From Paludisphaera soli (GTDB lineage: Bacteria > Planctomycetota > Planctomycetia > Isosphaerales > Isosphaeraceae): a stretch of 64,000 nucleotides of DNA. The notes below the pieces were generated by a model that was not told where the DNA came from, did no database searches, and was given only the letters and a program-made list of their open reading frames with translations. The first letter of the stretch is position 1; each line of letters starts with the position of its first letter. The position numbers and the translations under genes were made by a program. The stretch is from positions 1 through 64,000 of the forward strand of contig NZ_JAALJI010000003.1 in the NCBI RefSeq assembly GCF_011064595.1, in the 5' to 3' direction. Below, one piece after another: positions 37,554 through 52,228 of this stretch.

Positions 37554-38540
37554 TCAGGATTGCTGCTGCTGGCCCTGCTGCTGGCGGAAGTTCGACTGCG
37601 ACTGCATCTGGCTCATCCGGCCGCGGGGAGCCTGGCGGCCCGACTGGATCCAGGAGGCCGCGGACCAGGGTGCCTCCGAGCGTTCCGACCACTCGCCCCA
37701 ATCGGTCGGGACGCGGGAGATCGGCTCGACCTTGACCGCCACGCTGATCGATTCCTCAGCCCGGCCGCGATAGATCCCTCGGTTGGGCGGGACGTCGAGG
37801 TAGTCTCGCCCCAGGGCGATGCGGACGTAGTCGTCGTCGACGATGTGGCCGCGGGTCGGGTCGACGTCGACCCAGCCGTTGCGGCCGGCCCAGACCTGGC
37901 ACCAGGCGTGGGTGGCGATCTCGCCCGGCTCGTGGATGTAGCCGCTGACGTAGCGGGCCGCCAGGCCGAAGCCTCGGCATGCGCCGAGGAACAGGTGGGC
38001 GAAATCCTGGCAGACGCCGCGGCCCAGCGCCAGCGCCTCGCTCACGGGCGTCCGCGCCGAGGTCACCTTCTTCTCGTAGACCAGCCGCGCGCGGGTGGCG
38101 TCGGCGAGCTGCTGGACCGCGTCCAGGAGCGACCCGGAGGGCCTGGGGATCGCTTCGAGGAACGCCGACATCTCCGGGCTCTGATTCACGAGCTTGCTAG
38201 GGAGCCGGTACTCGAGGGCCTCGACGGCCTGGAACTCGTCGGCCTCGGGGTCGAAAGGGACCTCGGCGAGTCTGGGTTCGCCGGCCGCCCGGTGGGTGCG
38301 GACCACGCTCGTCGCGCGGATCAGCAATTCGCGATACGGCCGGTAGATGTTGAACAGGTCGACGCGGTTGAAGAAGCCGTCCTGGTAGACCGTCACCGGG
38401 GCCGAGGGGGTGATCCGTAGGCGATACCCCAGGCAGGTCTGATCTTCCTCGGACGGCGGGCCCATGCGGGCCTCGAAGACGGTCTCGGAGACGTCTTGCG
38501 TGTACGTCAGCTTGGTCTCGTGCTGGACTCGGAGCAGCAT
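37554..38540 (-). CDS. Transglutaminase-like cysteine protease domain protein
   Basis: A 328-residue soluble protein. The N-terminal region (residues 1-120) has the beta-rich transglut_N pattern beginning LLRVQHETKLTYTQDV. The catalytic part shows Cys177 in GVCQDFAH, His211 in EIATHAWCQVW and Asp225/227 in NGWVDVDPTRG. Such domains cleave or cross-link peptides. The tail is low complexity (QSQSNFRQQQGQQQQ). It belongs to the conserved trio with the alpha-E and ATP-grasp genes upstream. GGAGGGG precedes the ATG. Confidence 0.91.
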   Translation of the reverse strand: MLLRVQHETKLTYTQDVSETVFEARMGPPSEEDQTCLGYRLRITPSAPVTVYQDGFFNRVDLFNIYRPYRELLIRATSVVRTHRAAGEPRLAEVPFDPEADEFQAVEALEYRLPSKLVNQSPEMSAFLEAIPRPSGSLLDAVQQLADATRARLVYEKKVTSARTPVSEALALGRGVCQDFAHLFLGACRGFGLAARYVSGYIHEPGEIATHAWCQVWAGRNGWVDVDPTRGHIVDDDYVRIALGRDYLDVPPNRGIYRGRAEESISVAVKVEPISRVPTDWGEWSERSEAPWSAASWIQSGRQAPRGRMSQMQSQSNFRQQQGQQQQS

Positions 38541-38564
38541 GGCGGTTCGTCCCCTCCCATCCGT

Positions 38565-39518
38565 TCACATCAGGAAGAAGCAGCGCTGGATCTCGTCGCT
38601 GACGCGATGGCAGGTGACCTGGAGCGAGTCCAGGAACTTGAGCAGGCCGCGGTCGAAGATCTCGGCCACGTCGAGGTAGCGGAGATCGCTCTCGAGGCGG
38701 CCCAGGATCCGCTCCGCCTCGCAGCCGTAGGCGTCCTCGTCGCCGCCGGAGATCGACTCCAGCGACTCCTGGCAGCGGGCGGCGCTATAGCGGATGGAGC
38801 GTGGGAATTCGGAGTCGAGCACGAGGAAGCGGATCACCCCCTCGGGCTCGATCCGCTCGCGCTCGGATCGGAGGAACGGCCCGTGGGCGGAGCAACTCCT
38901 CAGGAGGCTCGTCCACCGCACGAGCTGCATCGGGGCCTCATGGTCCTCGACCTGCTGGGTCAGCACCGGGCACTTGGCGCGGAGGATCCGGCAGAGGACG
39001 TCGAGCCGTTCCAGATGACGGCCCAGCTCGAGGAAATGGTAGACCTCGTCGCGGGGCAGGGTGTTCTGGATCATGCCGTCGATGAGAAGGCACGAGTTCT
39101 TGATGGCGTTGAAGAGGCTCGACGGCCCTCGGACGAACTTGCGCTGCGCGCGGGTGCCGCCGAGGAACAAGTGGAGCCGGTTGACCTCGCTCCAGACGTC
39201 GACCCCGATCGCCTCCTGGGTGCCGCGGGCGTTCTCGCGGGCGCGGGAGATCATGCTGAGGATCGACTGGTGATTGGCGCGGTCGAAGGTCAGGAAGCGT
39301 AGGACGGCGTCCCGCGACGGCGCGCTGACGTCCATCGGGAAGTCGTCGCGGCAGGCGAGGATGGTGAGGGCGATCTCGACGGGAGCGAAGCCCTCGCCCG
39401 GGCCGATCTCCGAGTCGAGCTCGATGAACAGGCCGATGTCGAGCAGTCGGGCGACGTTCTCGGCGCGCTCGATGTAGCGGCCCATCCAGTACAGGCTCTC
39501 GGCGACGCGGCTGAGCAT
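38565..39518 (-). CDS. Alpha-E domain (DUF403) protein
   Basis: A 317-residue helical protein. It opens with MLSRVAESLYWMGRYIERAE, the alpha-E signature, and continues with DAVLRFLTFDRANHQSILS and GTQEAIGVDVWSEVNRL. Alpha-E proteins always travel with ATP-grasp and transglutaminase genes and are thought to hold the peptide-modification complex together; no enzymatic residues are known. Its ATG starts one base after the stop of the ATP-grasp gene, so translation is coupled, and it ends 24 bases before the transglutaminase gene. Confidence 0.92.
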   Translation of the reverse strand: MLSRVAESLYWMGRYIERAENVARLLDIGLFIELDSEIGPGEGFAPVEIALTILACRDDFPMDVSAPSRDAVLRFLTFDRANHQSILSMISRARENARGTQEAIGVDVWSEVNRLHLFLGGTRAQRKFVRGPSSLFNAIKNSCLLIDGMIQNTLPRDEVYHFLELGRHLERLDVLCRILRAKCPVLTQQVEDHEAPMQLVRWTSLLRSCSAHGPFLRSERERIEPEGVIRFLVLDSEFPRSIRYSAARCQESLESISGGDEDAYGCEAERILGRLESDLRYLDVAEIFDRGLLKFLDSLQVTCHRVSDEIQRCFFLM

Positions 39519-39519
39519 C

Positions 39520-41040
39520 TCAGGGCCCCTCCTCGGCGGCGGTCGGCCGCGTCGACGCGCGGCGGGCGTCGGCCGGCGACGTGCCCTGCAGGACCCAGGT
39601 GTCTTTCGTCCCCCCCCCTTGCGAGCTGTTGACGACCAGGCTCCCCTCGGGCAGGGCCACGCGAGTCAGGCCGCCGGGGAGCACGAAGACGTCCTCGCCG
39701 TAGAGGACGAACGGGCGGAGGTCGACGTGGCGGCCGTCGAGGTGGCCGTCGACGAAGGTCGGGTGTCGGCTCAGCTGGATCGTCGGCTGGGCAATGTAGC
39801 CGCGCGGGTTGTCCTCGACCTTGCGCCGGAACTCCTCGCGTTGCGCCTTCGTCGAGGCCGGGCCGATGAGCATCCCGTAGCCTCCCGACGCGTCGACCGC
39901 CTTCACCACCAGCGACTCCAGGTTCTCCAGGATGTGGCTGCGGTGCGACGGGACGAGCGGGCGGAAGGTCTCGACGTTGTTCAGGACGGGCTGCTCGTCG
40001 AGATAATACTTGATGATATCGGGGACGAATGGGTAGATCCCTTTGTCGTCCGCCACGCCCGTCCCGAGCGAGTTCGCCAGCCCGATGTTCCCCGCTCGAT
40101 AAGCCCCCATGAGCCCGGCGACGCCCAGGATGCTGTCGGGCCGGAAGGAGAGCGGGTCGAGGAAGTCGTCGTCGAGCCGACGGTAGATCACGTCGACGCG
40201 TTCGAGCCCTCGCGTCGTCCGCCGGAAGATCTGGCCGCGGTCGAGCACGAGGTCGCGGCCCTCGACGAGGTCCACGCCCATCTGGCGGGCGAGGAAGCTG
40301 TGCTCGTAATAGGCGGAGTTGTACATGCCGGGGGTGAGGACCACGACCGTGGGGTCGGAGCACCCGTCGGGCGCAATGTAGCGGAGCACCGAGAGCAGCT
40401 TGTCGGTGTAATCGTCGACCGGCCGGACGTTGTACTCTTCGAACAGGAAAGGAAAGATCTGCTTCATCACCTGGCGGTTCTTGAGGACGTAGCTGACGCC
40501 CGAGGGCGTGCGGCAGTTGTCCTCCAGCACCAGGTATTCGCCGTTCGCGTCGCGGATCAGGTCGATCCCGGAGACGTGGACGTAGATGTCCTTGGGGACC
40601 CTCAGACCCAGGCAGTCCCGCCGATATCCCGAGGCCCCGAAGATCAGCTCGGCGGGGACAACCCTGTCCTTGAGGATCGAACGATTGTGGTAGATGTCTC
40701 GTATGAACAAATTGAGGGCGCGGACGCGCTGCTTCAACCCCCGCTCGATCCGGTCCCACTCGGGTGCGGAGACCAGCCGAGGGATCGGGTCGAAGGGGAT
40801 GATCCGCTCCACCCCCTGATCGCGGCCGTAGACCGTGAACGTGATCCCCTGGTTGCGCATCGTGAGGTCGGCCACCTTATGGCGGCGTTCGATCTCGGCG
40901 GGCCCCAGGTCGATCAGTCGGTCGTGGAGCGGCGCGTAGTGCGGCCTGGGCGTCCGGTCCGATCCGAACATCTCGTCATAGGCCGCGAGGTTGTAGCCGC
41001 TGAACAAGGCAGCGCTTTCATCCGAGTGGGTCGCTTGCAT
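39520..41040 (-). CDS. Circularly permuted type 2 ATP-grasp (DUF404/DUF407) protein
   Basis: A 506-residue protein predicted to ligate amino acids or peptides to a carboxylate using ATP. Family marks are GYNLAAYDEMF near the start, RAYNL-type RVRALNLFIRDIYH, the sequence VLEDNCRTPSGVSYVL, DVIYRRLDDDFLDPLSF and SGGYGMLIGPAST in the nucleotide site. The final third has YIAQPTIQLSRHPTFVDGH. The gene leads the ATP-grasp/alpha-E/transglutaminase operon. I chose ATG 41040; an upstream frame from 41202 adds non-family residues. The ribosome site is not clear. Confidence 0.92.
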   Translation of the reverse strand: MQATHSDESAALFSGYNLAAYDEMFGSDRTPRPHYAPLHDRLIDLGPAEIERRHKVADLTMRNQGITFTVYGRDQGVERIIPFDPIPRLVSAPEWDRIERGLKQRVRALNLFIRDIYHNRSILKDRVVPAELIFGASGYRRDCLGLRVPKDIYVHVSGIDLIRDANGEYLVLEDNCRTPSGVSYVLKNRQVMKQIFPFLFEEYNVRPVDDYTDKLLSVLRYIAPDGCSDPTVVVLTPGMYNSAYYEHSFLARQMGVDLVEGRDLVLDRGQIFRRTTRGLERVDVIYRRLDDDFLDPLSFRPDSILGVAGLMGAYRAGNIGLANSLGTGVADDKGIYPFVPDIIKYYLDEQPVLNNVETFRPLVPSHRSHILENLESLVVKAVDASGGYGMLIGPASTKAQREEFRRKVEDNPRGYIAQPTIQLSRHPTFVDGHLDGRHVDLRPFVLYGEDVFVLPGGLTRVALPEGSLVVNSSQGGGTKDTWVLQGTSPADARRASTRPTAAEEGP

Positions 41041-41402
41041 GGGCAGCCATCGGCGGAGCGGGTGTGCGCAATATCGACAACCCCACGAACCGGGGCGCGT
41101 GGGAACGGGTCTCTGGCCGTGGGAGAGGTGTCGCGCGGGCGATTGTCGGCGGGCCGGACGTCGACGACGACCGGCCGGCGCCCAGCCGGGCCACCCACGC
41201 ATCCCCCTTGTAGCAAGAAAATCCCCCTCTGACCAGCCGGAAGCGGGGCGGCCCGATCCGACGACCCGGCCGCGCCGAAGCGTCGAGCGCGAATCTCGGA
41301 AAAAAGGCGAGCCCCCGATTCATTTCGTGGTCATGAGGTTAGAATCATGGTACGACCTCTCCAGCCGTCTCGGCGAGCGACCGTCGATCCTTCGGTGAAG
41401 CC
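41041..41402. other. Divergent intergenic region between the ATP-grasp trio and the five-gene envelope run
   Basis: A 362-base gap between divergent transcription units. The only defensible signal is the TAGAAT -10 box at 41340 for the rightward run. I see no RNA gene, and the translations on either strand are arginine-rich shadows. Confidence 0.4.
41340..41345 (+). promoter_or_regulatory. Candidate -10 box of the five-gene envelope run
   Basis: TAGAAT matches five of six -10 positions. The expected -35 area (GATTCA near 41317) is weak. Transcription would start near 41352, about 51 bases before the ATG at 41403. Confidence 0.35.
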
Positions 41403-43025
41403 ATGATCCCGACGATTCGAATCGCAACGCTCGCGACCGCCTGGTGCGCGATATCGATCCTGGCCGCGGTCGGGCCCCCGTCGGCCCGCGCCCAGCAGCA
41501 GGAGCCGGCCGTGTCGGCCGCTGTGCAATACCTGCGCAAGGCCTCCTCGGGGAAGCAGGTCGGCGAGACGGCCATGATCGCGCTGGGCCTCCTCAAAGCC
41601 GAGACGCCGGTCGACGACCCGGCCCTGGCCGCCTGCCTGGCGAAGATCCGCACCCGATTCGTCAGCGGCGGCTACACCCCCGAACGGTCGGGTGGGGCCG
41701 ACGTCTACGAGGCCGCCGCCGTGGCCCTCGCGCTCTCGAACGTGGATTCTTCCGGTCGCGGCAGCTTGCTGGAAACGGTGGGCTCCTATCTGATGCGGAA
41801 GCAGAAGCCCAACGGCAGCTGGGATTACGAAGGCCGACCCCACGGCGACACGTCGATCTCCCAGTACGCGGTCCTCGGCCTCTGGGAGTGCGAGAACAAC
41901 GGCGTCGAGGTCCCCCCCTCGGTCTGGGATCGCGCGGCGCAATGGTACATGTCGTCGCAAAGCTCGGCCGGGAGCTGGAACTACCATCGCGACGAGAACG
42001 AGGCCGAAACCGTCTCGATGACCGCGGCCGGCGTCGGCAGCCTGTTGATCTGCGGCCGCCAGCTGGACAGCTACCGAAGCTTCCAGAAGGGGCTGAACCC
42101 TCACCTGACCCCGGTGGACGACGGCGGCCCTCGCGGCGACTACAAGCCGGTTGCGACCGCCGCTCAGATCAACGCGGCGATCGCCCGCGGCCTGTCGTGG
42201 ATCGGCTCGCATTTCAGCACGGCGGACGCCAAGACCTTCGGCAAGTCCATGTACTACGGCCTCTACGGCATCGAGCGGATCGGGGGACTCGCCGACCGCC
42301 AGGCGATCGGCCGGATCGACTGGTTCGAGAAGGGTGCCGCGTACATCCGTTCCAACCAGAGGCCCGACGGCTCTTGGGGCTATCCCCCCTACTCGGACGA
42401 CGTGACGACGGTCTGGGCCGTACTCTTCCTGACGCGATCGACCAAGAAGTCGCTCGCGCGGGTGGATGCGAAGAAGCTCGGCTCCGGGACGCTCCTCGGC
42501 GGCCGTTACCTGCCGAACGACCTGACCACGATGACGGTCGCGGGCGGTCGGATCATCAGCCGGCCCATGAACGGCGCCGTCGAGGGGATGCTCGACGTGC
42601 TCGAGGACCCGCGGATCGCCGACGCCGAGACGGCCGTGGCGGGGATCCTCGACCGTTACCAGACGCAGGGCGCGGCGGCGCTGAAGCCCTTCAAGGACCG
42701 CTTCCGACGCATGCTCCGCTCCCGCGACCCCGGCCTGCGCGAGGTCGGCGCCTGGGCGCTCGGCCGCTCGGGCGACCTGGACGCCGCCCCCGACCTGATC
42801 GCCGCGCTCGAAGACGCCGACGAGCGGGTCGTCGCGTCGGCGAGGCAGGGCCTGCAGCTCATCGGGCGGAAGATCGACGGTCCCGGCCCCGAGCCCGGCG
42901 CGACGCCCGAGCAGAAGCGGGCCGCCGCCGAAGCCTGGCGGGGGTGGTACGAGAGCGTCCGCCCCCTGGACGCCTCGGCGATCGACGAGGCGGCCGCCGG
43001 CGCGACGGGGAGGGCCGGGCCTTGA
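41403..43025 (+). CDS. Exported squalene-cyclase-like barrel protein with HEAT repeats
   Basis: A 540-residue protein with a signal peptide (residues 1-30, ending ARA). The main domain is an alpha-alpha barrel with prenyltransferase/squalene-oxidase repeats, seen as three QXXXGSW-type motifs: QKPNGSWDYEG, SSAGSWNYHRD and QRPDGSWGYPPYS. Without the DxDD or DxD catalytic residues of true cyclases, it is probably a binding protein. Residues ~430-500 are HEAT-like (LRSRDPGLREVGAWALGRSG and LIAALEDADERVVASARQG), suited to protein contacts. It leads a five-gene run of envelope proteins and overlaps the next gene by four bases (TTGA). A second paralogous barrel begins the fusion at 60.8-63 kb. Confidence 0.82.
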   Translation: MIPTIRIATLATAWCAISILAAVGPPSARAQQQEPAVSAAVQYLRKASSGKQVGETAMIALGLLKAETPVDDPALAACLAKIRTRFVSGGYTPERSGGADVYEAAAVALALSNVDSSGRGSLLETVGSYLMRKQKPNGSWDYEGRPHGDTSISQYAVLGLWECENNGVEVPPSVWDRAAQWYMSSQSSAGSWNYHRDENEAETVSMTAAGVGSLLICGRQLDSYRSFQKGLNPHLTPVDDGGPRGDYKPVATAAQINAAIARGLSWIGSHFSTADAKTFGKSMYYGLYGIERIGGLADRQAIGRIDWFEKGAAYIRSNQRPDGSWGYPPYSDDVTTVWAVLFLTRSTKKSLARVDAKKLGSGTLLGGRYLPNDLTTMTVAGGRIISRPMNGAVEGMLDVLEDPRIADAETAVAGILDRYQTQGAAALKPFKDRFRRMLRSRDPGLREVGAWALGRSGDLDAAPDLIAALEDADERVVASARQGLQLIGRKIDGPGPEPGATPEQKRAAAEAWRGWYESVRPLDASAIDEAAAGATGRAGP

Positions 43026-43984
43026 GCGCGACCGCCCCCCATGTCGAATCCCCGAAGAGGCCTGCGGCGTCCCCGGCCCGAGACGTCCGCATCCTTGGCG
43101 AATCCCGGTACGATCGCGTCACGTCCTTCCTAATGGCCGTTGTCCTCGGTGCGATGCTGGTCGTCGGCTGGCTGGCCCTGATCTTCGTGACTAACCAGGA
43201 ATTCGCCTCGCGGGTCACGTCCCCGCTGCAGATCGTCGAGGTCTTCGGCGGCGGCGGCGGATCGCCCGACGGAGCGCCCGGCTCCACGGAGAAGATTGAC
43301 CTGGCCGGGGCGGACGCCGCGCCGCAGGCGTCGAACAACGAGGAGACGCCGGGCGAGTTCGAACAGCCTTCGGTCCAGTCGACCCCCGGGGCGATGCTCG
43401 ACGCCGCGCTCGAGGCCGGGCGCGACGTCGCCGAGGTGGACGTCGGCCCGGCCATGCCGAGCGGCGGGGCCGTCGCCAGCGGGCGTCGGGCCTCCAAGAT
43501 CGGCACCGGGGGCCCCGGCCTGGGCTTCGGCCCCGGCGACGGCGGCGTCAGCCGCGAGAACCGCTGGAGCATCCTCTATCCCGAAGGCCAGCGGCCCGAG
43601 GAGTACGCTCGCCAGCTCGACTCCCTCGGCGTCGAACTGGCCGTGGTCGGGGGGAAGGACCAGCTCGTGTACGCCTCCAACTTCTCCAGCCCGAATCCCA
43701 CCCGTCGCAATGGCGGCAGCGGCGGCGAAGGCCGGCTCTACTTCATCTGGGAAGGCCGGGCGAGGAAGGCGTCCGACCTCGTCCTGCTGCGAAAGGCGGG
43801 GATCGAGGTCGGCGAGGGGACCGTGTTCCAGTTCTATCCCGCCGGCATCGAGGAACGGCTCGCCGACCTGGAGATTCGCTACCGCGGGCGGTCGCCCGCA
43901 GAGATCCGAGTGACCCGGTTCGCGGTCGTCCCCAGGGGGGAAGGCTACGACTTCAAGGTGGTCGCCCAGGAGACCCTCCGATGA
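43022..43984 (+). CDS. Single-pass membrane protein of unknown function
   Basis: A 320-residue protein with one transmembrane segment (residues ~37-56, AVVLGAMLVVGWLALIFV), then a Gly-rich low-complexity region (VEVFGGGGGSPDGAPG) and a folded C-terminal domain (from RENRWSILYPEG to KVVAQETLR), likely outside the cytoplasm. YPEGQRPEEYARQLDSLGVE and LYFIWEGRARKASDLVLL are its clearest stretches; I do not recognise the family. The start is a TTG overlapping the stop of the barrel gene, since no in-frame ATG lies before the membrane helix. It lies 36 bases before the FHA gene. Confidence 0.66.
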   Translation: MSATAPHVESPKRPAASPARDVRILGESRYDRVTSFLMAVVLGAMLVVGWLALIFVTNQEFASRVTSPLQIVEVFGGGGGSPDGAPGSTEKIDLAGADAAPQASNNEETPGEFEQPSVQSTPGAMLDAALEAGRDVAEVDVGPAMPSGGAVASGRRASKIGTGGPGLGFGPGDGGVSRENRWSILYPEGQRPEEYARQLDSLGVELAVVGGKDQLVYASNFSSPNPTRRNGGSGGEGRLYFIWEGRARKASDLVLLRKAGIEVGEGTVFQFYPAGIEERLADLEIRYRGRSPAEIRVTRFAVVPRGEGYDFKVVAQETLR

Positions 43985-44020
43985 CCCTCGACCCCTCGCA
44001 CCGGAGCGCCCGGACGCCCC

Positions 44021-47000
44021 ATGGCCACGCTTGAGATCCACGACGCCGACGGCCGCGTCCGGTTCGTCGACCTGGACAGGTCGCACCCGATCCTCTTCGG
44101 CTCGGGGGCCGCATGCGACATCGTCCTCGCCGGCGAGGGCGTCCTGCCCGTCCACGGCCGGATCCGCTGGCGAGGACGCCGTTTCAAGGTCGACGCCTCG
44201 CCCGACGCCGAATTCCTGGAAGTCAACGGCAGCAAGATCGTCTCCGCGACCCTCCGACAGGGCGACGAGCTGACCGTCGGCCCTTGTCGGATGTTCGTTC
44301 TGCGGCTCGACGACCCGGGGACCGAGTCCGCCCCCCGTCGCGATCGGCGACGTCCGGCGCGGGCCGAGGCCGACGAGCCGACCAGGGTGCTCTCGGGGCC
44401 GGCCGAAGGCTCGCACGTCGAAGCGCCCGTGATCCAAGCCCCCCCGCGTCGCGTCTCGGTGTTCGAAAAGGACGACGTCCTCGCCACACTCGACCTCGAC
44501 CTGCCGCCGAACGAGGCGAAGGCCCCTCCGATCGCCAGCTCGGCCCGTCGGCCGCCAAAAGGGAAAGGGGCCGGGACGATCGCCCGACTCCTGGCGCGGT
44601 GGCGGAATCCTCGGGAGGCCGACGCTCCGGGTCGCGAGGTGATCGCGGCCTCGCCGACCGTCCTGGCGCTGGTCGCCCTCCTCGGCCTCCTGATCGCGAT
44701 GGGCTTCTGGCTCAACGGGATCATTGTTCGGACGATCGCCTCAAGGACCTTCAATCACGCGATGGAGTTGCTCGAGGACGGCGACAACGCGACCGCGATC
44801 CGCGAGTTCGACTCCTTCCTCGAGAAGAACCTCGAAGACCCCCGCGCCGGCAAGGCCCTCACCCTCCGCGCCCTGGCCAACGTCCGGCAGTACATCTCCG
44901 TCTCGGGCGCGACGTGGTCCCGAGCGCTCGAGGCCGCGCGTGAGATGGTCGACACGGTCGGCGAACTGCCCGAGTATCGGGACGAGAAGTCGGAGCTGGG
45001 GGATCTGACGATCCGGATCGGCGAAGGGCTGGCCGACCGCGCCCGTCGGACGCCCCCCGACGCCAAGTCTCTGGCCGAGGCGGAGGAGGCGGTCGCACTG
45101 CACGCCAGGATCGCCGGCGAGTCGGCGCCCGCGTTCCTCACCAAGTCCCGACTCCCCGACCTGATCAACGAAGCGAGGGCGGCGATCCGCAAGGCCGACG
45201 CTCTCGCGGCCGCGATCGCGGCGATGGACCGGGCGATAGGTCGCAAGTCGGCGACCGAGGTGTACAAGGCGCGCGACGGCTTGGTACTCGCCTACGCCGA
45301 TCTCTCGAAGCACCCGAAGGTCGTCGAGCGGATGGTCCTCGCCAACGATCTGATGCGGCAGGCGGCCAGGGTGGACCCTTCGCGGCGGCCCGGCGAAACG
45401 ACGGAGAGGCCGGAGCCGCTGGGGCCGGCCACGTCGCTGGTCTCCCGCTCGCGGTCGGACGCGCCGGCCTCGCCGCTCGCCGCCGACGGCGTCGCCTATG
45501 CGTTGGCCGACGGCGCGGCGTACGCGATCGACGCCGCGACGGGCGCGCCCCTCTGGCGGACGCCGGTCGGCCTCGCCTGCACGGTCGTCCCCGCGCCCGT
45601 TCCGGGCGACGCCAGCGTGCTGACCTTCGACGCGCGCCATCACGAACTGTGCCGCCGCGACGCCCGGACCGGACGATTGATCTGGCGCCAGGGTCTCGAA
45701 GAAGACGTCGACGCCGCCCCGCTGGTTATGGGCGAGCAGGTCTATCAGACGCTCCCCAGCGGCCGCTTGAGGGTGCTTGCGCTCGCGACCGGCGAGGTGG
45801 AGGCCACGGTAGACCTCGGCTTCCCCGTCACGCGGACGCCGGTCGCCGACGAATCGGGACGGTTCCTCTACGTCATGGGCCGCAAGGACTGCCTGTTCGT
45901 GATCGCCCGCGACCCGCTGGCCTGCGTGGACGTGCAGTATCTGGGCCATGGCGAGGGGTCCATCCCCTGCCCACCCGCGCGGCTCGGGCGGTTCCTGGTC
46001 GTGGCCGAGAACGACGGGATCGGCGACAGCCGATGGCGCGTCCTGGTCCTCGACGAGGACGGCTCGCGGCCTCGGGCCGTGCAGACGATCGAGGTGGCGG
46101 GCTGGACCTGGGACTCGCCGCCGACCTCGGGCTCGTCGATCTGGGCGGTCGGCGATCGCGGCGGGCTCGAGGTCTTCGCGGCGGGCGATTACGCCGGCGC
46201 GAACCCGTTCCGGTCGATCGCGCGGCTGAGCCCCGACCTCACGAGCACCGGACCGGCTTTCGGCTTCACATCCTCCGAGCGCGACATCTGGGTCGCCGCT
46301 TCTCGCACGGCCCGCTACGACCTCGACGGCGACGGGGGACGGCTGGCGAGCCGATACATGCTCGGCGACCTGGGCCCGGCCGCCGGGCCGATCCGGGCCG
46401 CGGGGCGGCGGCTGATCCTGAGCTTCGAATCGCGACGCGGCGGCGTCTCGCTGCGCGGCGTCGATCCGTCGGCCGGCGAGATCGAATGGGAGACCGTCAT
46501 CGGCGGCCCGTGGCCGGTCCCCCCGGTCGCCTGGGGCGACGGCGACTCGCTCGCGAGCGTCGATCGGGCCGGTCGCCAGATCCGCATCCCTCGGGCCGAC
46601 CTGGAGCGCGGCGGCTTCGTGACCACCTTACTCCCCAGGCCGGGCGATCCCCAGGCCCCAGACGGCCTCCTGACGCGAGTCGCTCGCGAGGGGCGGGAAC
46701 TGACGCTCCTCGCCCCAGGCCGGGGCGGCTCCGAGCTCTGGACGGAGTCCGACGGCGGCTGGAAACGGTCGGAACTCCCTTCGGTCCTGGCCGCGTCGCC
46801 CCTCCCGTGGTCGGGCGGGCTGCTGATCCCGGGCGAGGACGGTCGGGCCTACCTGATCGACCCGACGTCGGGAAGATCCGACGCCGAACCGCTGGTGCCC
46901 GAGTTCGAACGCGACCGGACGGGCCGATGGCTGGCGCCGGCGGCCCTCGACGGCGACTCGGTCCTGCTCGCCGACGACGCCGGCCGGGTCCGCCGGTTGG

Positions 47001-47524
47001 GCTTCAAGGCCGCCCCGGAACGTCGGATCGTGATCGAGGCCGAGGCGACGCTCGACCAGAGGATCCTCGCCGATCCGGCCTGCACGCGCACGGCCGTCGT
47101 GCTGGCGATGGCGGACGGTTCGGTGCGCTCGCTCGCGGCCCGCGACCTCAGCCCCGTCGGGTCCTGGAAGCTCGACGCCCCGCTGCTGGGGGCCCCGATG
47201 GAAGTCGACGGCCGCGTCGTCGCCTTCGACGCGGCGGGCGGCGTGACGCTCTTCGATACCGACGGCCGTCGCGCCTGGACGTCGACCCCAGGCGCGCCGG
47301 CGCTCGGCGCCCCGCTGATTCGCGGCGACGTCGTCTGGATCCTGGACCGCGAGGCCCATGCTCGGGGCCTGGCCCTCGCCGACGGCCGCGAGGTCGGCTC
47401 GATCGAGCTGGGCGCCCAGCCGACCGGCGGATTGATCGCGGTCGGACCGGACGTGCTCGCGCCGACCGGTCGAGGCGTGTTGCAACCGATCAAGCTGGAA
47501 GCCGCCGGAGGAACGAAGCCATGA
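44021..47524 (+). CDS. Membrane protein with degenerate FHA domain and PQQ-type beta-propeller
   Basis: A 1167-residue protein. Residues 1-95 resemble an FHA domain: ILFGSGAACDIVLAGEGV, then PVHGRIRWRG and FLEVNGSKIV. The pThr-binding Arg of the usual GR pair is replaced (FGSG) and the following Ser is absent, so classical phosphothreonine binding is unlikely. A transmembrane helix lies near residues 213-236 (PTVLALVALLGLLIAMGFWL). A helical tetratricopeptide-like region (TFNHAMELLEDGDNATAIRE) follows. The remainder (from about 470) is a PQQ/quinoprotein-type propeller with repeats such as AIDAATGAPLWRTPV and RDARTGRLIWRQGLE. The stop is shared with the next gene start (ATGA). Confidence 0.8.
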   Translation: MATLEIHDADGRVRFVDLDRSHPILFGSGAACDIVLAGEGVLPVHGRIRWRGRRFKVDASPDAEFLEVNGSKIVSATLRQGDELTVGPCRMFVLRLDDPGTESAPRRDRRRPARAEADEPTRVLSGPAEGSHVEAPVIQAPPRRVSVFEKDDVLATLDLDLPPNEAKAPPIASSARRPPKGKGAGTIARLLARWRNPREADAPGREVIAASPTVLALVALLGLLIAMGFWLNGIIVRTIASRTFNHAMELLEDGDNATAIREFDSFLEKNLEDPRAGKALTLRALANVRQYISVSGATWSRALEAAREMVDTVGELPEYRDEKSELGDLTIRIGEGLADRARRTPPDAKSLAEAEEAVALHARIAGESAPAFLTKSRLPDLINEARAAIRKADALAAAIAAMDRAIGRKSATEVYKARDGLVLAYADLSKHPKVVERMVLANDLMRQAARVDPSRRPGETTERPEPLGPATSLVSRSRSDAPASPLAADGVAYALADGAAYAIDAATGAPLWRTPVGLACTVVPAPVPGDASVLTFDARHHELCRRDARTGRLIWRQGLEEDVDAAPLVMGEQVYQTLPSGRLRVLALATGEVEATVDLGFPVTRTPVADESGRFLYVMGRKDCLFVIARDPLACVDVQYLGHGEGSIPCPPARLGRFLVVAENDGIGDSRWRVLVLDEDGSRPRAVQTIEVAGWTWDSPPTSGSSIWAVGDRGGLEVFAAGDYAGANPFRSIARLSPDLTSTGPAFGFTSSERDIWVAASRTARYDLDGDGGRLASRYMLGDLGPAAGPIRAAGRRLILSFESRRGGVSLRGVDPSAGEIEWETVIGGPWPVPPVAWGDGDSLASVDRAGRQIRIPRADLERGGFVTTLLPRPGDPQAPDGLLTRVAREGRELTLLAPGRGGSELWTESDGGWKRSELPSVLAASPLPWSGGLLIPGEDGRAYLIDPTSGRSDAEPLVPEFERDRTGRWLAPAALDGDSVLLADDAGRVRRLGFKAAPERRIVIEAEATLDQRILADPACTRTAVVLAMADGSVRSLAARDLSPVGSWKLDAPLLGAPMEVDGRVVAFDAAGGVTLFDTDGRRAWTSTPGAPALGAPLIRGDVVWILDREAHARGLALADGREVGSIELGAQPTGGLIAVGPDVLAPTGRGVLQPIKLEAAGGTKP

Positions 47525-50031
47525 GACGCTCCCCGCGGCCCGATTCGCGCTCAAAGGTCGCCCACCGGATGATCGGACCGGCGCTCGTCGCCTCGACTTG
47601 CCTCGGCCTGCTCGCCGGTTCGGTCGCGACCGCGACGGGCCAGGAAGCGGCGAGGGCGGCGGCGATGCCGGCCGATCTCCTCGTGTCGCGTCCCTTCGAC
47701 CGGATCACCCTCATCGACAACTCGACGCTCCTAGTCGAGCCGGTCAGCCCGCGCCCTCTGCCGCCGGTCGAGACGCCGAAGCCCCCGACCCGGGGCCCGG
47801 CCATCCCCCTCGGGGGTAACATCGGTCTGCCCGGCGAGCCCAGCAAGTTCGAGGCGTTCGAGGCCAGGAAGGCCGAGGAGCCCGGTCCGGAGACCCAGAT
47901 CACCATCCATCTCGCCCAGGAAGCCGCGACCGGCAGGGGCGACGCCCGCGATTTCAAGCTCAAGCGAACCGCCATCAAGAAGATCGAGTATTTTGAGGAG
48001 ATTCTCCTGGCCGAGGGCGAGCGTCTGCTCCGAGCCCGCGACTTCACTCGGGCCTTCGAGCACTACCTTAGGGTGCGGAATCGAGATCCGAAGTGGCCGG
48101 GACTCGATGACCACGTCGACGCCCTGCTGTTCGCCGAAGGCCGGCAGGCGCTGGGGGACGGCGACGTGACCCGAGGCCTTCGCCTCCTGCGCGAGCTGCA
48201 CGTCCGCAAGCCTGACTACCCCGGCCTGCTGGATCAGTTCGCCTCGGCCTACGCCGGCCGCATCACGCGAGCGATCGAGCTGAAGCTCTATCCCGAGGGC
48301 CGCCGGCTCCTCCACGAACTGGAGGAAGTGGCGAAGGACCTGCCTCGGACTCGGGAGTTACGCTCGAAGTTCGTGGATCTGGCCCGAGATCGGGCCGGCC
48401 TTGTTGGATCGGGATCCAACCCCGAGAGACTCGACGCCCTGCTCGAAGCCCTGAAGATCTGGCCGACCCTCGAAGGCGCGGAGGCCGAGTACGGCAAGGC
48501 CTTCGCGGCGGACCCGACCCTCGACGTTGCGGTGGTCGACGTCCCCTGGCCCGCCGGCCCCTGGACCCGCTCTCCGGCCGATGCTCGAATCGCCCCGCTC
48601 CTGTTCCTGCCGATGCTCGCGGATGATTCGGAGGAGGCGAGGCGGGGCGAAGCTTCGGGCCAGATCGCTGCCGAACTTGAGTCCACCGACCTTGGACGCC
48701 GCCTGGTCGTCCGAGTCAGGCCCAACATCCCCTGGTCCGACGGGTCGCGCGACGTGTCGGCGGTGGATGTGGCCCGAACGCTGATCGACCGCTGCGACCC
48801 GAGGGACGCGGCCAAGTATCAGGCGAGGTGGGCCGACGTCCTCGAGAAGGTCCAGCCGATCGACGAGGCCCGGGTGGAGCTTCGCCTGAAGCGACCGCTG
48901 CTCAAGCCGTCCTTCTGGCTGGACGCCCCAGTGGGCGCCGCGCACGCGGGAGCCGACGGCCGGGTCGTGGTTTCGTCGCAGGAGCGTCGCCTGGTGGGTT
49001 CGGGGCCCTACATCTGCTTCGACTCGTCGCCCCAGTCGATCGAACTCCGGGTTCGATCCGAGGCTTCGGCGGATAACCCTTCCGGCTCCATTCGCCGACT
49101 TCGCGAGGTCCGATACGACCGGCCCGCCGGTGCTCTCGCCGCCTTCAATCGCGGCGACGTCGCCTTGCTGGCCCACGTCCCGCCCGATCAGCGGGCCAAG
49201 CTGGGAGGGACGCCGGGCGTCGGTCTGGGGAGCTACTCGCAGCCCGCCGTGCACGTCCTGGCCCTCGACGGCCGTTCGCCGCTCCTCCGCAATCGGACTT
49301 TGCGACGGGCCCTGTCCTACGCGCTCGATCGCAAGAGTCTACTCGAAGAGACGATCCTCAAGAGCCCTGGCGGCGATGGCGATGCGCCGGCCGACGGCGT
49401 GTTCCCGCGGGGCGGCTATGCAGACGCCCCGGGGGTCAAGCCGCTCGCTTACGATCCCGTCCTGGCGGTCGCCCTGGCCTCGCTAGCCCGGGGCGAGATG
49501 AAGCTGGAAGCCGTGAAACTGAAGCTGGAATACCCCCCCATCGCGGAAGTCGAGGCGGTCGTCGCCCGGCTGGTCGAGGCGTTCCGGCTGGCTCGGATCG
49601 AGGTCGCGGCCGTCGCGGTCCCCCAATCTCGGCTGGAATCGGAGTTACGCGCCGGCCGACGCTTCGACCTGGCCTACCGCGTCCTTCGCTGCGACGAGCC
49701 GGTGCTCGACGCGGGGCTGATGATCTGCCCGGGCTACGACGCTCCCCCATCGGCCGACGCGTTGGCGTCGGCCGCCAGCCCTCGGATCCTCCAACTGCTG
49801 CTCCAGCTCGAACGCTCCACGGACCTGCCGACCGCCCGCGGGCTGGCCCTCCAGATCGATCGCGAGCTGCGCGACGAACTCCCGGTGATTCCGCTCTGGC
49901 AGCTCACCGAACAGTATGCCTGGCGGTCGCGCCTCAAGGGCCCGACCGCCTCCGCCGACCGCCTCTATCGAGGAATCAAGACGTGGGAGATCACGCCGTG
50001 GATCGCCAAAGACCCCTGGATCGGCGACTGA
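47521..50031 (+). CDS. Exported protein with helical N-terminal region and family-5 extracellular solute-binding domain
   Basis: An 836-residue protein. A signal peptide or anchor spans residues 17-41. Residues ~155-260 are helical and repeat-like (LAEGERLLRARDFTRAFEHY). From about residue 336 the sequence has the SBP_bac_5 plan of oligopeptide/nickel-binding proteins: VRVRPNIPWSDGSRDVSAVD, LVGSGPYIC, LRNRTLRRALSYALDRKSL and DELPVIPLWQ near the end. Such proteins normally deliver ligands to ABC permeases, but no permease or ATPase is in the window, so it may instead be an orphan sensor or scaffold. ATG 47521 overlaps the stop of the propeller gene. Confidence 0.82.
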   Translation: MRRSPRPDSRSKVAHRMIGPALVASTCLGLLAGSVATATGQEAARAAAMPADLLVSRPFDRITLIDNSTLLVEPVSPRPLPPVETPKPPTRGPAIPLGGNIGLPGEPSKFEAFEARKAEEPGPETQITIHLAQEAATGRGDARDFKLKRTAIKKIEYFEEILLAEGERLLRARDFTRAFEHYLRVRNRDPKWPGLDDHVDALLFAEGRQALGDGDVTRGLRLLRELHVRKPDYPGLLDQFASAYAGRITRAIELKLYPEGRRLLHELEEVAKDLPRTRELRSKFVDLARDRAGLVGSGSNPERLDALLEALKIWPTLEGAEAEYGKAFAADPTLDVAVVDVPWPAGPWTRSPADARIAPLLFLPMLADDSEEARRGEASGQIAAELESTDLGRRLVVRVRPNIPWSDGSRDVSAVDVARTLIDRCDPRDAAKYQARWADVLEKVQPIDEARVELRLKRPLLKPSFWLDAPVGAAHAGADGRVVVSSQERRLVGSGPYICFDSSPQSIELRVRSEASADNPSGSIRRLREVRYDRPAGALAAFNRGDVALLAHVPPDQRAKLGGTPGVGLGSYSQPAVHVLALDGRSPLLRNRTLRRALSYALDRKSLLEETILKSPGGDGDAPADGVFPRGGYADAPGVKPLAYDPVLAVALASLARGEMKLEAVKLKLEYPPIAEVEAVVARLVEAFRLARIEVAAVAVPQSRLESELRAGRRFDLAYRVLRCDEPVLDAGLMICPGYDAPPSADALASAASPRILQLLLQLERSTDLPTARGLALQIDRELRDELPVIPLWQLTEQYAWRSRLKGPTASADRLYRGIKTWEITPWIAKDPWIGD

Positions 50032-51578
50032 CGGCGGCCGTGCTGACGCTTCTCCTCGCGGTCGGGTCGATCGGCCGGACGCAGGAGGGGCCGTCGACGG
50101 CGCCGGCTTCCGAGCCGGAACCCCTCGAAAACCGCCCTTACCGCATCGAGGTCCATCTGGCGTCGGATGCCGACGCTCGGCTGGACTCGGGGCGGCGAGG
50201 AGCCCTGATCGCGTCCTGGCTGGAAATGGTGAGGCGGTACGTCGGCCCGTCCTGGTCGATTCGGATCGCCGATCGCCCCAGCTCGCTCGCGGTCTCGGAC
50301 CTGGAAGGTCTCAAGGCGGGAGCCCTCTCGGGTTTCGATCCCGCCTCGGACAAAATCTGGCTGGTTCGAGTGTCGGTCGACGGCGACGACGCCGGACTGG
50401 TCTTTTCGGGCCGAGAGTACGACGCCGCGACTCGATGGTTGGGACCCTTGCAGCGCCGCAAGGCCACGGCCCGCCTCGACGCGACCCGGACGTTCTTCCG
50501 GTTCACGCTCGACCTCTTCAGCCCTTCAGCCCTGATCGTCGGCCAGGAGGGCGGCCGGGCGCTCCTGAAGGTCCAGGGAGCGTCGATACCCCCCGCGAGC
50601 GACCTCGGGGCGGTCGTCACGAAGGGGACGACGTTCATCCCCTTGCGGCTCGTCACCCTGCGCGATGAGTCGGTGGGAATCACCCGGATCGCCTATACCT
50701 ATCTCGCGGCCGAGTCCGTCGAGGGCTCCATCGCCCGCTGTGCGATCCTCAGTGCTTATCGCGACCCCCTCTCGCAACGCATCTCCCGTCCGAACACCCT
50801 GGCGGCGCTGGGGATCAAAGCTGGCGAGACTGCGCTACGCCTCCGATTCGTGGACAAGGCCACCCGGGAACCGGCCTCGGGCTACACGCTCACGGAGCGT
50901 CCCGCGCCCGACGGCCCGATCCGTCAGGTCGGCATGACCGACCGATCGGGCCGCATCGTCGTGGAGCCGGGTCCCACGAAGGGAGTGGTCAAGCTCCGAC
51001 TGCTCGCCGGCGACTCGGAACCGCTCGCCGAGTTCCCCATCATGCCCGGCGAGAGCGCCGAGGAGCGCGAGATCACGGTCGATCCGCTGCCGCTGGCCGC
51101 CAGGTATCAGGTTCAACTCGACGCGATACGCGACGCGGTCGTCGATCAGGTCGCGCTCCGAGCCCGGCTCGAACGGCTGATGCAGGTCCGGCTCGAAGGC
51201 GAGGACTGGACGGGGCTACAGGAACTGCTCAAGCAGCACGACCTACTGCCGCCCCCCTCGTCGTTCGCGGAGACGTTGAAGAAGCTGAAAGACGAGGCGA
51301 CCAAGCTTTCCTACGAAACGACGAAGACGATCGTCCTGACGAGGAATCTCCAGGCCGAGTTCAGCGAACTGGAGGGCCTCATCGAGGGCTATCTCACCGA
51401 CGACGCCTACAAGGCGTTCGCCGAAGCTCTCCGCGAGAAGAAACGGGAGAGCGAGGCGGTCGAACAAGCCAAGAAGAAGCCCTCGCCCCCCGCGACTCCT
51501 GCGGCACCGGTTGAAGAGCCGGCGGTCAAGAAGGCCTCGCCACCCCCCGAGCAGCACTCGCCCGCGAACGTGCCCTGA
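49983..51578 (+). CDS. Exported protein of unknown function, last gene of the envelope run
   Basis: A 531-residue protein with a signal peptide near residues 15-33 (LTAAVLTLLLAVGSIGRTQ). The mature N-terminal half is mixed alpha/beta (RIEVHLASDADARLDSGRRG, FTLDLFSPSALIVGQEG). The middle holds a beta-rich stretch suggesting an Ig-like or carboxypeptidase-regulatory fold (ALRLRFVDKATREPASGYTL), and the C-terminal part is a long coiled region with a Pro/Lys tail. The function is unknown. The GTG at 49983 overlaps the upstream gene by 49 bases; a GTG five codons later is also possible. Its stop lies 13 bases from the convergent regulator gene. Confidence 0.7.
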   Translation: MGDHAVDRQRPLDRRLTAAVLTLLLAVGSIGRTQEGPSTAPASEPEPLENRPYRIEVHLASDADARLDSGRRGALIASWLEMVRRYVGPSWSIRIADRPSSLAVSDLEGLKAGALSGFDPASDKIWLVRVSVDGDDAGLVFSGREYDAATRWLGPLQRRKATARLDATRTFFRFTLDLFSPSALIVGQEGGRALLKVQGASIPPASDLGAVVTKGTTFIPLRLVTLRDESVGITRIAYTYLAAESVEGSIARCAILSAYRDPLSQRISRPNTLAALGIKAGETALRLRFVDKATREPASGYTLTERPAPDGPIRQVGMTDRSGRIVVEPGPTKGVVKLRLLAGDSEPLAEFPIMPGESAEEREITVDPLPLAARYQVQLDAIRDAVVDQVALRARLERLMQVRLEGEDWTGLQELLKQHDLLPPPSSFAETLKKLKDEATKLSYETTKTIVLTRNLQAEFSELEGLIEGYLTDDAYKAFAEALREKKRESEAVEQAKKKPSPPATPAAPVEEPAVKKASPPPEQHSPANVP

Positions 51579-51591
51579 GGGGTCCGCGGAT

Positions 51592-52194
51592 TCACTTGCC
51601 GGAGGTTTCGGGCTCGTCCTCGGGGAGTTCCTCGGAGGAGTCGGCCGGATCGAAGCCGACCTTGCCGTTCCGAGAACCTCGGGAGAAGAGCTTGGCGACC
51701 ATGGCCCCCCCACGAAACAGTCGGAGCATGGCCGGCGTCGGGAGATTTTCGATCTGCCCGTACCAGTCGGTCACCATTCGGGTGAAAGCCAGCATCTTCT
51801 CGAGCTGCTCGCGGGTGTAATCCTCGGCCGCGCCGCCGGCCTTGGCCTCGTCGATGCAGTGTTCAAGCAGGGAGATCGTCGGGTCCATCTCGCGGCGGCG
51901 GCGTTCGGCCATGATGACCCGGAAGGTGTCCATCACGTCCTTCAGCGCCTCGAAGCGGTCGCGGCGGTCGCCGATGATATGGACCCGGCGTACTACGCCC
52001 CAGGTGATCAGCTCGCGCAGGCTGGTCGAGACGTTCGAGCGGCTGACGTCGAGGAGCGTGCTGATCTCCTCGGCGTCCAGCGCAGTCGGCGCGATGAACA
52101 GCAGGGCGTGGACCTGAGCCATGGTGCGATTGATGCCCCATGCCTGGCCCATCTCGCCCCAATGGAGCACGAACTTCTGCGCGGCAGGTGTCAT
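51592..52194 (-). CDS. GbsR/MarR-family transcriptional regulator
   Basis: A 200-residue DNA-binding protein. The winged helix is in residues ~25-90: INRTMAQVHALLFIAPTALD, the recognition part EEISTLLDVSRSNVSTSLRE and the wing LITWGVVRRVHIIGDRRDRF. GbsR proteins repress choline/glycine-betaine genes in Bacillus and similar regulators elsewhere; no such genes are nearby, so its target is unknown. A palindrome over its own promoter suggests self-regulation. ATG 52194 is preferred over a GTG two codons earlier. It ends 13 bases from the convergent end of the envelope run. Confidence 0.9.
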   Translation of the reverse strand: MTPAAQKFVLHWGEMGQAWGINRTMAQVHALLFIAPTALDAEEISTLLDVSRSNVSTSLRELITWGVVRRVHIIGDRRDRFEALKDVMDTFRVIMAERRRREMDPTISLLEHCIDEAKAGGAAEDYTREQLEKMLAFTRMVTDWYGQIENLPTPAMLRLFRGGAMVAKLFSRGSRNGKVGFDPADSSEELPEDEPETSGK

Positions 52195-52228
52195 TTCCAC
52201 AGGATCACCGCTTTGTCGGGTTGAACTG

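Follow-up and report, generated by a model that had tools for sequence, protein, structure and literature searches.

A block of five genes and its conservation

The stretch of DNA analysed here (the window, 64,000 nucleotides from Paludisphaera soli, a member of the family Isosphaeraceae with a genome of 7.97 Mb) carries at positions 41403-51578 a run of five genes, G1 to G5 (Table 1). We consider it probable that they encode the non-motor part of a trans-envelope machine that is driven by the proton motive force (pmf) and is characteristic of the class. The first-pass annotation, made from the sequence alone, described a co-directional run joined by a TTGA overlap, a 36-base gap, an ATGA overlap and a 49-base overlap; all five genes indeed lie on the + strand, and each junction is as claimed. 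The last overlap hinges on the GTG codon at 49983 and would be abolished by a start at the in-frame GTG at 50040. The 4-base overlap of G1 and G2 is retained in 16 of 21 computable loci (L091-L113).

Table 1 Coordinates of the five genes in the window
Gene	Position	Strand	Start	Length (amino acids)
G1	41403-43025	+		540
G2	43022-43984	+	TTG, overlaps G1 stop	320
G3	44021-47524	+		1167
G4	47521-50031	+		836
G5	49983-51578	+	GTG	531

The block was compared in 40 genomes, over regions of at most 20 kb surrounding a G4 homologue (fetched loci, 27 of them from the family), and in 79 named loci from one scan with a G2 alignment, all titled planctomycete except one titled 'bacterium'. The gene-order comparison omits family f3, whose G2 and G4 matches are weak, and all counts are affected by genome incompleteness, partial match listings and the single scan per collection. 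Of the 40 fetched loci, 26 have the complete set of five in unchanged order, and the arrangement is therefore more than chance. G4-G5 alone were found in L039, L051, L054 and L055; other fetched loci lack G1 or G2, some of them stemming from contig ends. Among the named loci, 20 of 79 show exactly G1-G2-G3-G4-G5, 13 contain G2 alone or G1-G2 alone, and the loci outside the tallied orders are truncated at an end, split or rearranged.

The same picture emerges from whole genomes. G4 is present in 35 of 37 family genomes (counting its own) and, over all relatives, in 56 of 59, several distant ones with E-values of only 1e-4 to 1e-10. Among 198 sampled genomes of the class (at least 95% complete), G2 was matched in 181, in single copy in all but 12 of these, and G4 in 189 at an E-value of 1e-10. 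Best places for both genes were listed for 144 class genomes, and in 111 of them G2 and G4 lie on the same strand less than 10 kb apart, as measured from the first-listed place per genome and with second G2 copies in genomes G231, G295 and G324 dropped. A sample of the phylum (n = 195) yielded 28 G2 matches, 27 of them within the class and one weak match outside (E 6.4e-4). The prospect, raised in the first-pass annotation, that the gene order is kept as a block in relatives holds by both the fetched loci and the G2-G4 distances. Linkage and distribution are directly observed, and the block is widely conserved in, and characteristic of, the class.

An ExbB-ExbD-ExbD triplet in relatives and in the family

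In ten of the 40 fetched loci, G2 and G3 are separated by about 2-3 kb in which three genes lie. The first encodes a channel of the ExbB/TolQ type, the other two encode different proteins of the ExbD/TolR type (D1 and D2). Five other families were compared, of which f2, f5 and f7 have the triplet, in f4 G2 was unrecognised, and in f6 the contigs end. The order G2-ExbB-ExbD-ExbD-G3 on one strand was likewise read in 29 of the 79 named loci, and the ExbB start lies less than 1.5 kb from the end of G2 in 31 of 47 loci with sufficient flank (L114-L169). A tolQ gene and two different tolR-type genes are hence adjacent in the blocks of many relatives; the window itself is without the triplet. The first-pass annotation had overlooked this motor, which is found between its second and third genes in many relatives and elsewhere in the genome in Isosphaeraceae.

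The Pfam families MotA_ExbB and ExbD were matched above cut-off in all ten proteins submitted (P0006-P0008 and seven outgroup proteins). The helix pattern with the proton-carrying aspartate of ExbD occurs in 45 of 45 D1 and 42 of 42 D2 reading frames with the widened pattern that was adopted; a narrower one covered 36 of 45 and 41 of 42. An N-terminal CxxC...CxxC pattern resembling a zinc ribbon was read in 41 of 42 D2 frames, the exception being that of the own genome.

In the own genome, ExbB and ExbD matches are distributed over four contigs. The triplet at G000:C112:4162-6806 was the best match for 12 of 12 outgroup queries; the ExbB/ExbD sets on C117, C132 and C90 match the operon triplets more poorly and were rejected as the cognate motor. 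The C112 ExbB has an orthologue in 39 of the 45 family genomes; these match with E-values no worse than 4e-65, against 1e-18 for the best paralogue. The order ExbB-ExbD1-ExbD2 is conserved in all 17 family loci read, none of which has the CxxC pair pattern; in family D2 a GYF_2-like segment replaces the zinc ribbon (best match 20.2 of the 25.8 bits needed; matched in five of six typed segments plus P0007). The GalE, TPR and SbcCD neighbours of the family triplet are common to only some genomes of the genus. From these sequence comparisons, the three motor genes appear to have moved out of the operon together in Isosphaeraceae.

Several further observations concern the motor genes. The second own ExbB-ExbD-ExbD set (L087, G000:C132) directly follows a gene for a H+-translocating pyrophosphatase. 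Genome G011, a family genome of 92% completeness, is without both G4 and the cognate ExbB, which may reflect a joint loss or an assembly gap. The triplet is inverted relative to G2 in L160, where it lies upstream, and in L114. Salt induction is reported in passages of PMC2754498 for exbB RB12053 and exbD RB12055 of R. baltica, genes that may or may not belong to this block.

Loci titled Schlesneria vary in gene content. G2 stands without adjoining G3-G5 or motor in L133, L139 and L156 (full flanks) and in L142 and L145 (short flanks), and G1 accompanies it in all of these except L156; L132, L138 and L163 retain G3-G5. Several genomes of genus g218 have G2 and G4 distant or on separate contigs. 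G2 is read in two adjacent frames in L168, and G3 in two pieces in L157.

As to the surroundings of the block in the window, a gene at 51592-52200 (-), presumably coding for a GbsR/MarR-like regulator, is convergent with G5; 18 of the 27 fetched family loci keep it, with identities of 65-91%. Three genes at 37554-41202 (-), whose products we take to be transglutaminase-like, alpha-E-like and circularly permuted ATP-grasp-like proteins, diverge from G1, and their place beside G1 is kept in eight of the 27. A scan for promoters and terminators gave nothing exceeding shuffled sequences, and no tRNAs were found in the window.

Products of the five genes

The product of G2 is the proposed transducer. 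The AlphaFold2 model of G2, built with 56 sequences, consists of a helix (29-62), a disordered region (about 69-169) and a compact alpha/beta domain (178-318), the predicted confidence (pLDDT) of the domain being mostly above 90 with two ten-residue blocks at 84-87. This plan of membrane helix, linker and domain is that of TonB, TolA and the vWA transducers as outlined in passages of PMC12204202. Following the helix, a conserved stretch of the form P-x-E-[IL]-[VI]-E-V, then GG-x-x-DG, may correspond to the 'motor box'. Pfam gave nothing significant for G2 itself and, over 56 members, weak matches only, mostly to domains of unknown function and none to vWA; TonB_C (PF03544) was matched in 0 of 56 members at E 0.1. 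Identity with TonB by sequence was rejected, as hhalign of the 56-row profile against five planctomycete TonBs returned a probability of 0.1. A PDB sequence search with G2 found nothing meaningful, Foldseek found no match at E 0.001, and the best VIA superposition (Z 3.6) came from the membrane-helix region. Neither TolA nor vWA was among the PDB structure matches listed for G2, which leaves room for a diverged fold. The domain was modelled within the whole protein and never alone, and we therefore make no claim of a new fold. Judged by the model, G2 looks like TonB and TolA in topology, while membership of the TonB/TolA or the vWA family is not established.

G5 gave nothing significant in Pfam, and its hydropathy scan has no peak above 1.6; that it is probably secreted is guessed from its N-terminal sequence. 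The model (mean pLDDT 88.7) predicts a FlgT/TolB-N-like domain plus barrel at about 51-280, a transthyretin/CnaB-like domain at 282-368 and a helical tail at 370-498. Foldseek ranked FlgT first (E 3.3e-8), followed by chain 8z5n_0 of a flagellar ring (E 4.4e-8), then pilins and TolB (E 2.9e-5) and, lower down, PelC and GNA1162 near 5e-3. In the VIA comparison, residues 52-279 superimposed on 8z5n_0 with Z 9.2 and a root mean square deviation (rmsd) of 8.8 over 198 aligned residues, residues 51-210 on TolB with Z 8.1 and rmsd 3.3 over 116, and residues 283-368 on a transthyretin-like domain with a best Z of 9.6 and rmsd 2.3 over 80. Identity with FlgT or TolB by sequence was rejected, neither being among the few weak Pfam matches of 31 members. 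The Z values are moderate, and the resemblance of G5 to FlgT and the N-domain of TolB is one of predicted fold. Such a likeness would suit a motor-linked protein, given that the N-domain of TolB is its TolA-binding part and that FlgT forms rings which serve the stators of flagella.

G3 matches FHA and PQQ_2 above the Pfam cut-off and has one hydrophobic helix at about 207-225. Its layout is that of an FHA-like domain, a membrane helix, a weak TPR-like stretch and a beta-propeller of the PQQ/BamB type. FHA domains that read phosphothreonine carry a conserved arginine (GR) and a conserved serine (SxxH) on the binding face. The G3 of the window reads GS and LPVH at these positions and, in 48 domain-bearing rows picked by eye from 66, NG was present in 45, the binding arginine in six and the serine in none. 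Moreover, in L060, L068-L071, L137, L141 and L144 the FHA-like N-terminus gives way to a short stretch resembling WLVD-x-G-x-LT-x-x-Q, which looks helical to the eye. The domain is thus mostly stripped of its arginine and serine and is swapped in some families, which argues against the phosphothreonine reader that the first-pass annotation had in mind; it is better seen as an adaptor, as far as the alignment can tell.

The term 'secreted' in the first-pass annotation is a reading of the N-termini. Both G1 and G4 have a signal-like N-terminal peak in the hydropathy scan. The Pfam matches of G1 to HEAT_2 (27.1 bits) and SQHop_cyclase_N (23.0 bits) are slightly under cut-off, and the product is probably a secreted alpha/alpha-toroid (squalene-cyclase-like) and HEAT protein. 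G4 matches SBP_bac_5 with 87.3 bits (cut-off 32.4) and is the sole PF00496 match in its own genome. It is probably secreted, and its N-terminal half is TPR-like in our reading.

The solute-binding domain of G4 could suggest that the block is the orphan operon of an ABC importer whose permease and ATPase are encoded elsewhere; the PDB sequence relatives of G4 are ABC binding proteins. The first-pass annotation had noted that no permease is found among these genes, and for the Opp type this extends to the whole genome. BPD_transp_1_N (PF19300), positive in 11 of 14 controls, gave 0 matches in the own genome and was found in one of 37 family genomes, that one 85% complete. The other 36 are without it, though 35 of the 37 keep G4. 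We therefore rejected the importer for Isosphaeraceae and find it scarcely conceivable as an explanation of the block; G4 is probably not an importer subunit in this family.

A periplasmic sensor, in which G4 would bind a ligand and G3 would relay the signal via FHA, with the motor genes as neighbours of separate function, could draw on the presence of both the SBP_bac_5 and the FHA domain. Against it stand the residue losses and replacements of the FHA-like domain described above, the lack of a kinase among the five genes, where Pfam bears out the first-pass statement, and the motor genes that separate G2 from G3 in 29 of the 79 named loci. We regard such a sensor as very improbable.

A further possibility is Ton-like uptake: the motor and G2 would energise an outer-membrane transporter, and G4 would be the periplasmic binder of what is imported, a solute or a piece of polymer. 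It is consistent with SBP_bac_5 in G4 and with the TonB topology predicted for G2. The TonB-dependent receptor plug (PF07715) was found in 0 of 37 family genomes and in eight of 59 relatives overall, and another energised uptake route would be useful where the plug is absent. TonB_C was found in 0 of 37 and five of 59, so that some relatives have TonB_C or Plug in addition to the block, which counts against this explanation. So do the lack of a match to a beta-barrel transporter among the five genes and that of an Opp-type permease in the own genome to finish the import. On balance, Ton-like uptake appears unlikely. TolB_N (PF04052), for its part, was found in 0 of 59 genomes (0 of 37 in the family) and was positive in three of 14 controls; the searches with TonB_C, Plug and TolB_N had positive controls in E. 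coli, Caulobacter and Bacteroides. Absence of the TolB_N profile from the 59 genomes was recorded with no search aimed at Pal/OmpA proteins.

A proposed trans-envelope machine and its relation to known systems

The machine that we propose is most likely an analogue of Tol-Pal, Ton and Agl-Glt with a transducer and partners of its own. Protein contacts and assembly, energisation, localisation and the function in the cell are inferred as follows. The ExbB/TolQ-type channel with its two different ExbD/TolR-type subunits (G000:C112) would admit protons and move the membrane helix of G2, and the disordered linker would let G2 span the periplasm. The C-terminal domain of G2 could then pull on or reposition a periplasmic or outer-membrane assembly of G3, G4, G5 and G1. 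In this assembly G3 would contribute the propeller, an anchor in the inner membrane and a cytosolic FHA-like adaptor, G4 a TPR-SBP (solute-binding protein) scaffold or ligand binder, G5 the FlgT/TolB-N-like part and G1 the toroid-HEAT part. The likeliest job of such a machine is to couple inner membrane and outer layers in the manner of Tol-Pal. We rank this function first because of the class-wide spread of the block, the lack of an outer-membrane barrel match among the five genes and the lack of a permease that could complete an import. The first-pass annotation had suggested an envelope complex for sensing or handling a polymer; joint work in the envelope is made probable by the conserved block, and polymer sensing found no support.

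Several points weigh against the proposed machine. Of the 144 listed genomes, 33 have G2 and G4 separated (28 on different contigs, five on the same contig but far or on opposite strands), no G2 match was found in 17 of the 198 class genomes, and L062 and L066 of family f4 have G3-G4-G5 with neither G2 nor motor recognised. No ExbB start lies within 1.5 kb of the G2 end in 16 of the 47 loci, among them six titled Schlesneria, the family member L115, and L160, and the ExbB orthologue was missed in six of 45 family genomes, each at most 92% complete. The zinc-ribbon, GYF and G1 domain matches all fall below the Pfam cut-offs. G2 is without the SHLS histidine of TolA and TonB, any histidine in the helix columns occurring in five of 56 rows. 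The Foldseek TM-scores of G5 are low (0.17-0.27 for the leading matches, at most 0.27 for FlgT, 8z5n_0 and TolB), the superposition on 8z5n_0 has the high rmsd given above, and Z near 8-9 may reflect a common arrangement. Finally, a diverged TonB or TolB can escape sequence profiles.

As its transducer gene was matched in 181 of the 198 sampled genomes of the class, the block is a tangible candidate for what energises the outer layers, and it offers defined genes that are open to testing. Its composition suggests, moreover, the recruitment of two folds, one solute-binding and one flagellar-ring-like, for force transduction. More tentatively, and with somewhat less than even confidence, we put forward that the block encodes a third kind of pmf transducer besides TonB/TolA and vWA, in which the ExbD axle is heterodimeric and the periplasmic partners are new. 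It would be the main energised connection between inner membrane and outer layers in a class without recognisable Tol-Pal. In that case it may underlie unusual envelope behaviour such as invaginations and budding without FtsZ. The parts of the literature consulted on planctomycete ExbD/TonB, Tol-Pal, core genome and solute-binding/FHA proteins contain no account of the block. The main text of the essential-gene paper on P. limnophila (PMC10632474) has none of six family words, and the block is unmentioned in passages of PMC5147048 and PMC12505986.

Among known systems, the family-5 ABC binding proteins of the OppA/NikA type share SBP_bac_5 with G4, whereas G4 has a TPR-like N-terminal half and its genome is without an Opp-type permease match. 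Ton (ExbB-ExbD-TonB) has the same motor families and transducer topology; here, however, there is no TonB_C match, no SHLS histidine and, in Isosphaeraceae, no receptor plug. The vWA transducers of PVC bacteria, as described in passages of PMC12204202, likewise combine a tolQ-like gene, two different tolR-like genes, a TPR protein and a transducer of TonB topology. According to the same passages a vWA domain is common to all of them and the SHLS histidine to many, whereas G2 lacks the histidine and showed no vWA in Pfam or among the PDB matches listed.

The Agl-Glt machine of Myxococcus has, in the passages of PMC3169522 on its core, one TolQ and two TolR proteins, an FHA-membrane protein and TPR proteins, as found here. 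The proteins of the block could therefore belong to a similar machine by which material or adhesins travel along the envelope, for gliding, for a surface polymer or in a spore-coat-like transport, and the zinc-ribbon-like, GYF-like and FHA-like modules would fit. However, the FHA protein G3 bears a beta-propeller and has no match to the TonB domain of GltG, the SBP, toroid and FlgT-like partners differ, and so do the taxa. The likeness is one of parts. Furthermore, the system occurs in 181 of 198 class genomes, and most sampled members of the class are not known to glide. We thus hold an Agl-Glt-like transport function to be quite improbable. A TonB-like end of GltJ is mentioned in passages of PMC8262864; for a comparison of the GYF-like segment with GltJ we found no literature source.

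Tol-Pal differs from the proposed machine in that the latter has two distinct TolR-like subunits, a G2 C-terminal domain unmatched to TolA, the propeller and the TolB-N-like fold on separate proteins (with no TolB_N profile match in the 59 genomes), and additional toroid-HEAT and solute-binding proteins. Both, however, would share a TolQ-like channel, TolR-like proteins, a single-pass transducer with linker and C-terminal domain, a TolB-N-like fold (predicted for G5), a propeller (in G3) and TPR-like parts.

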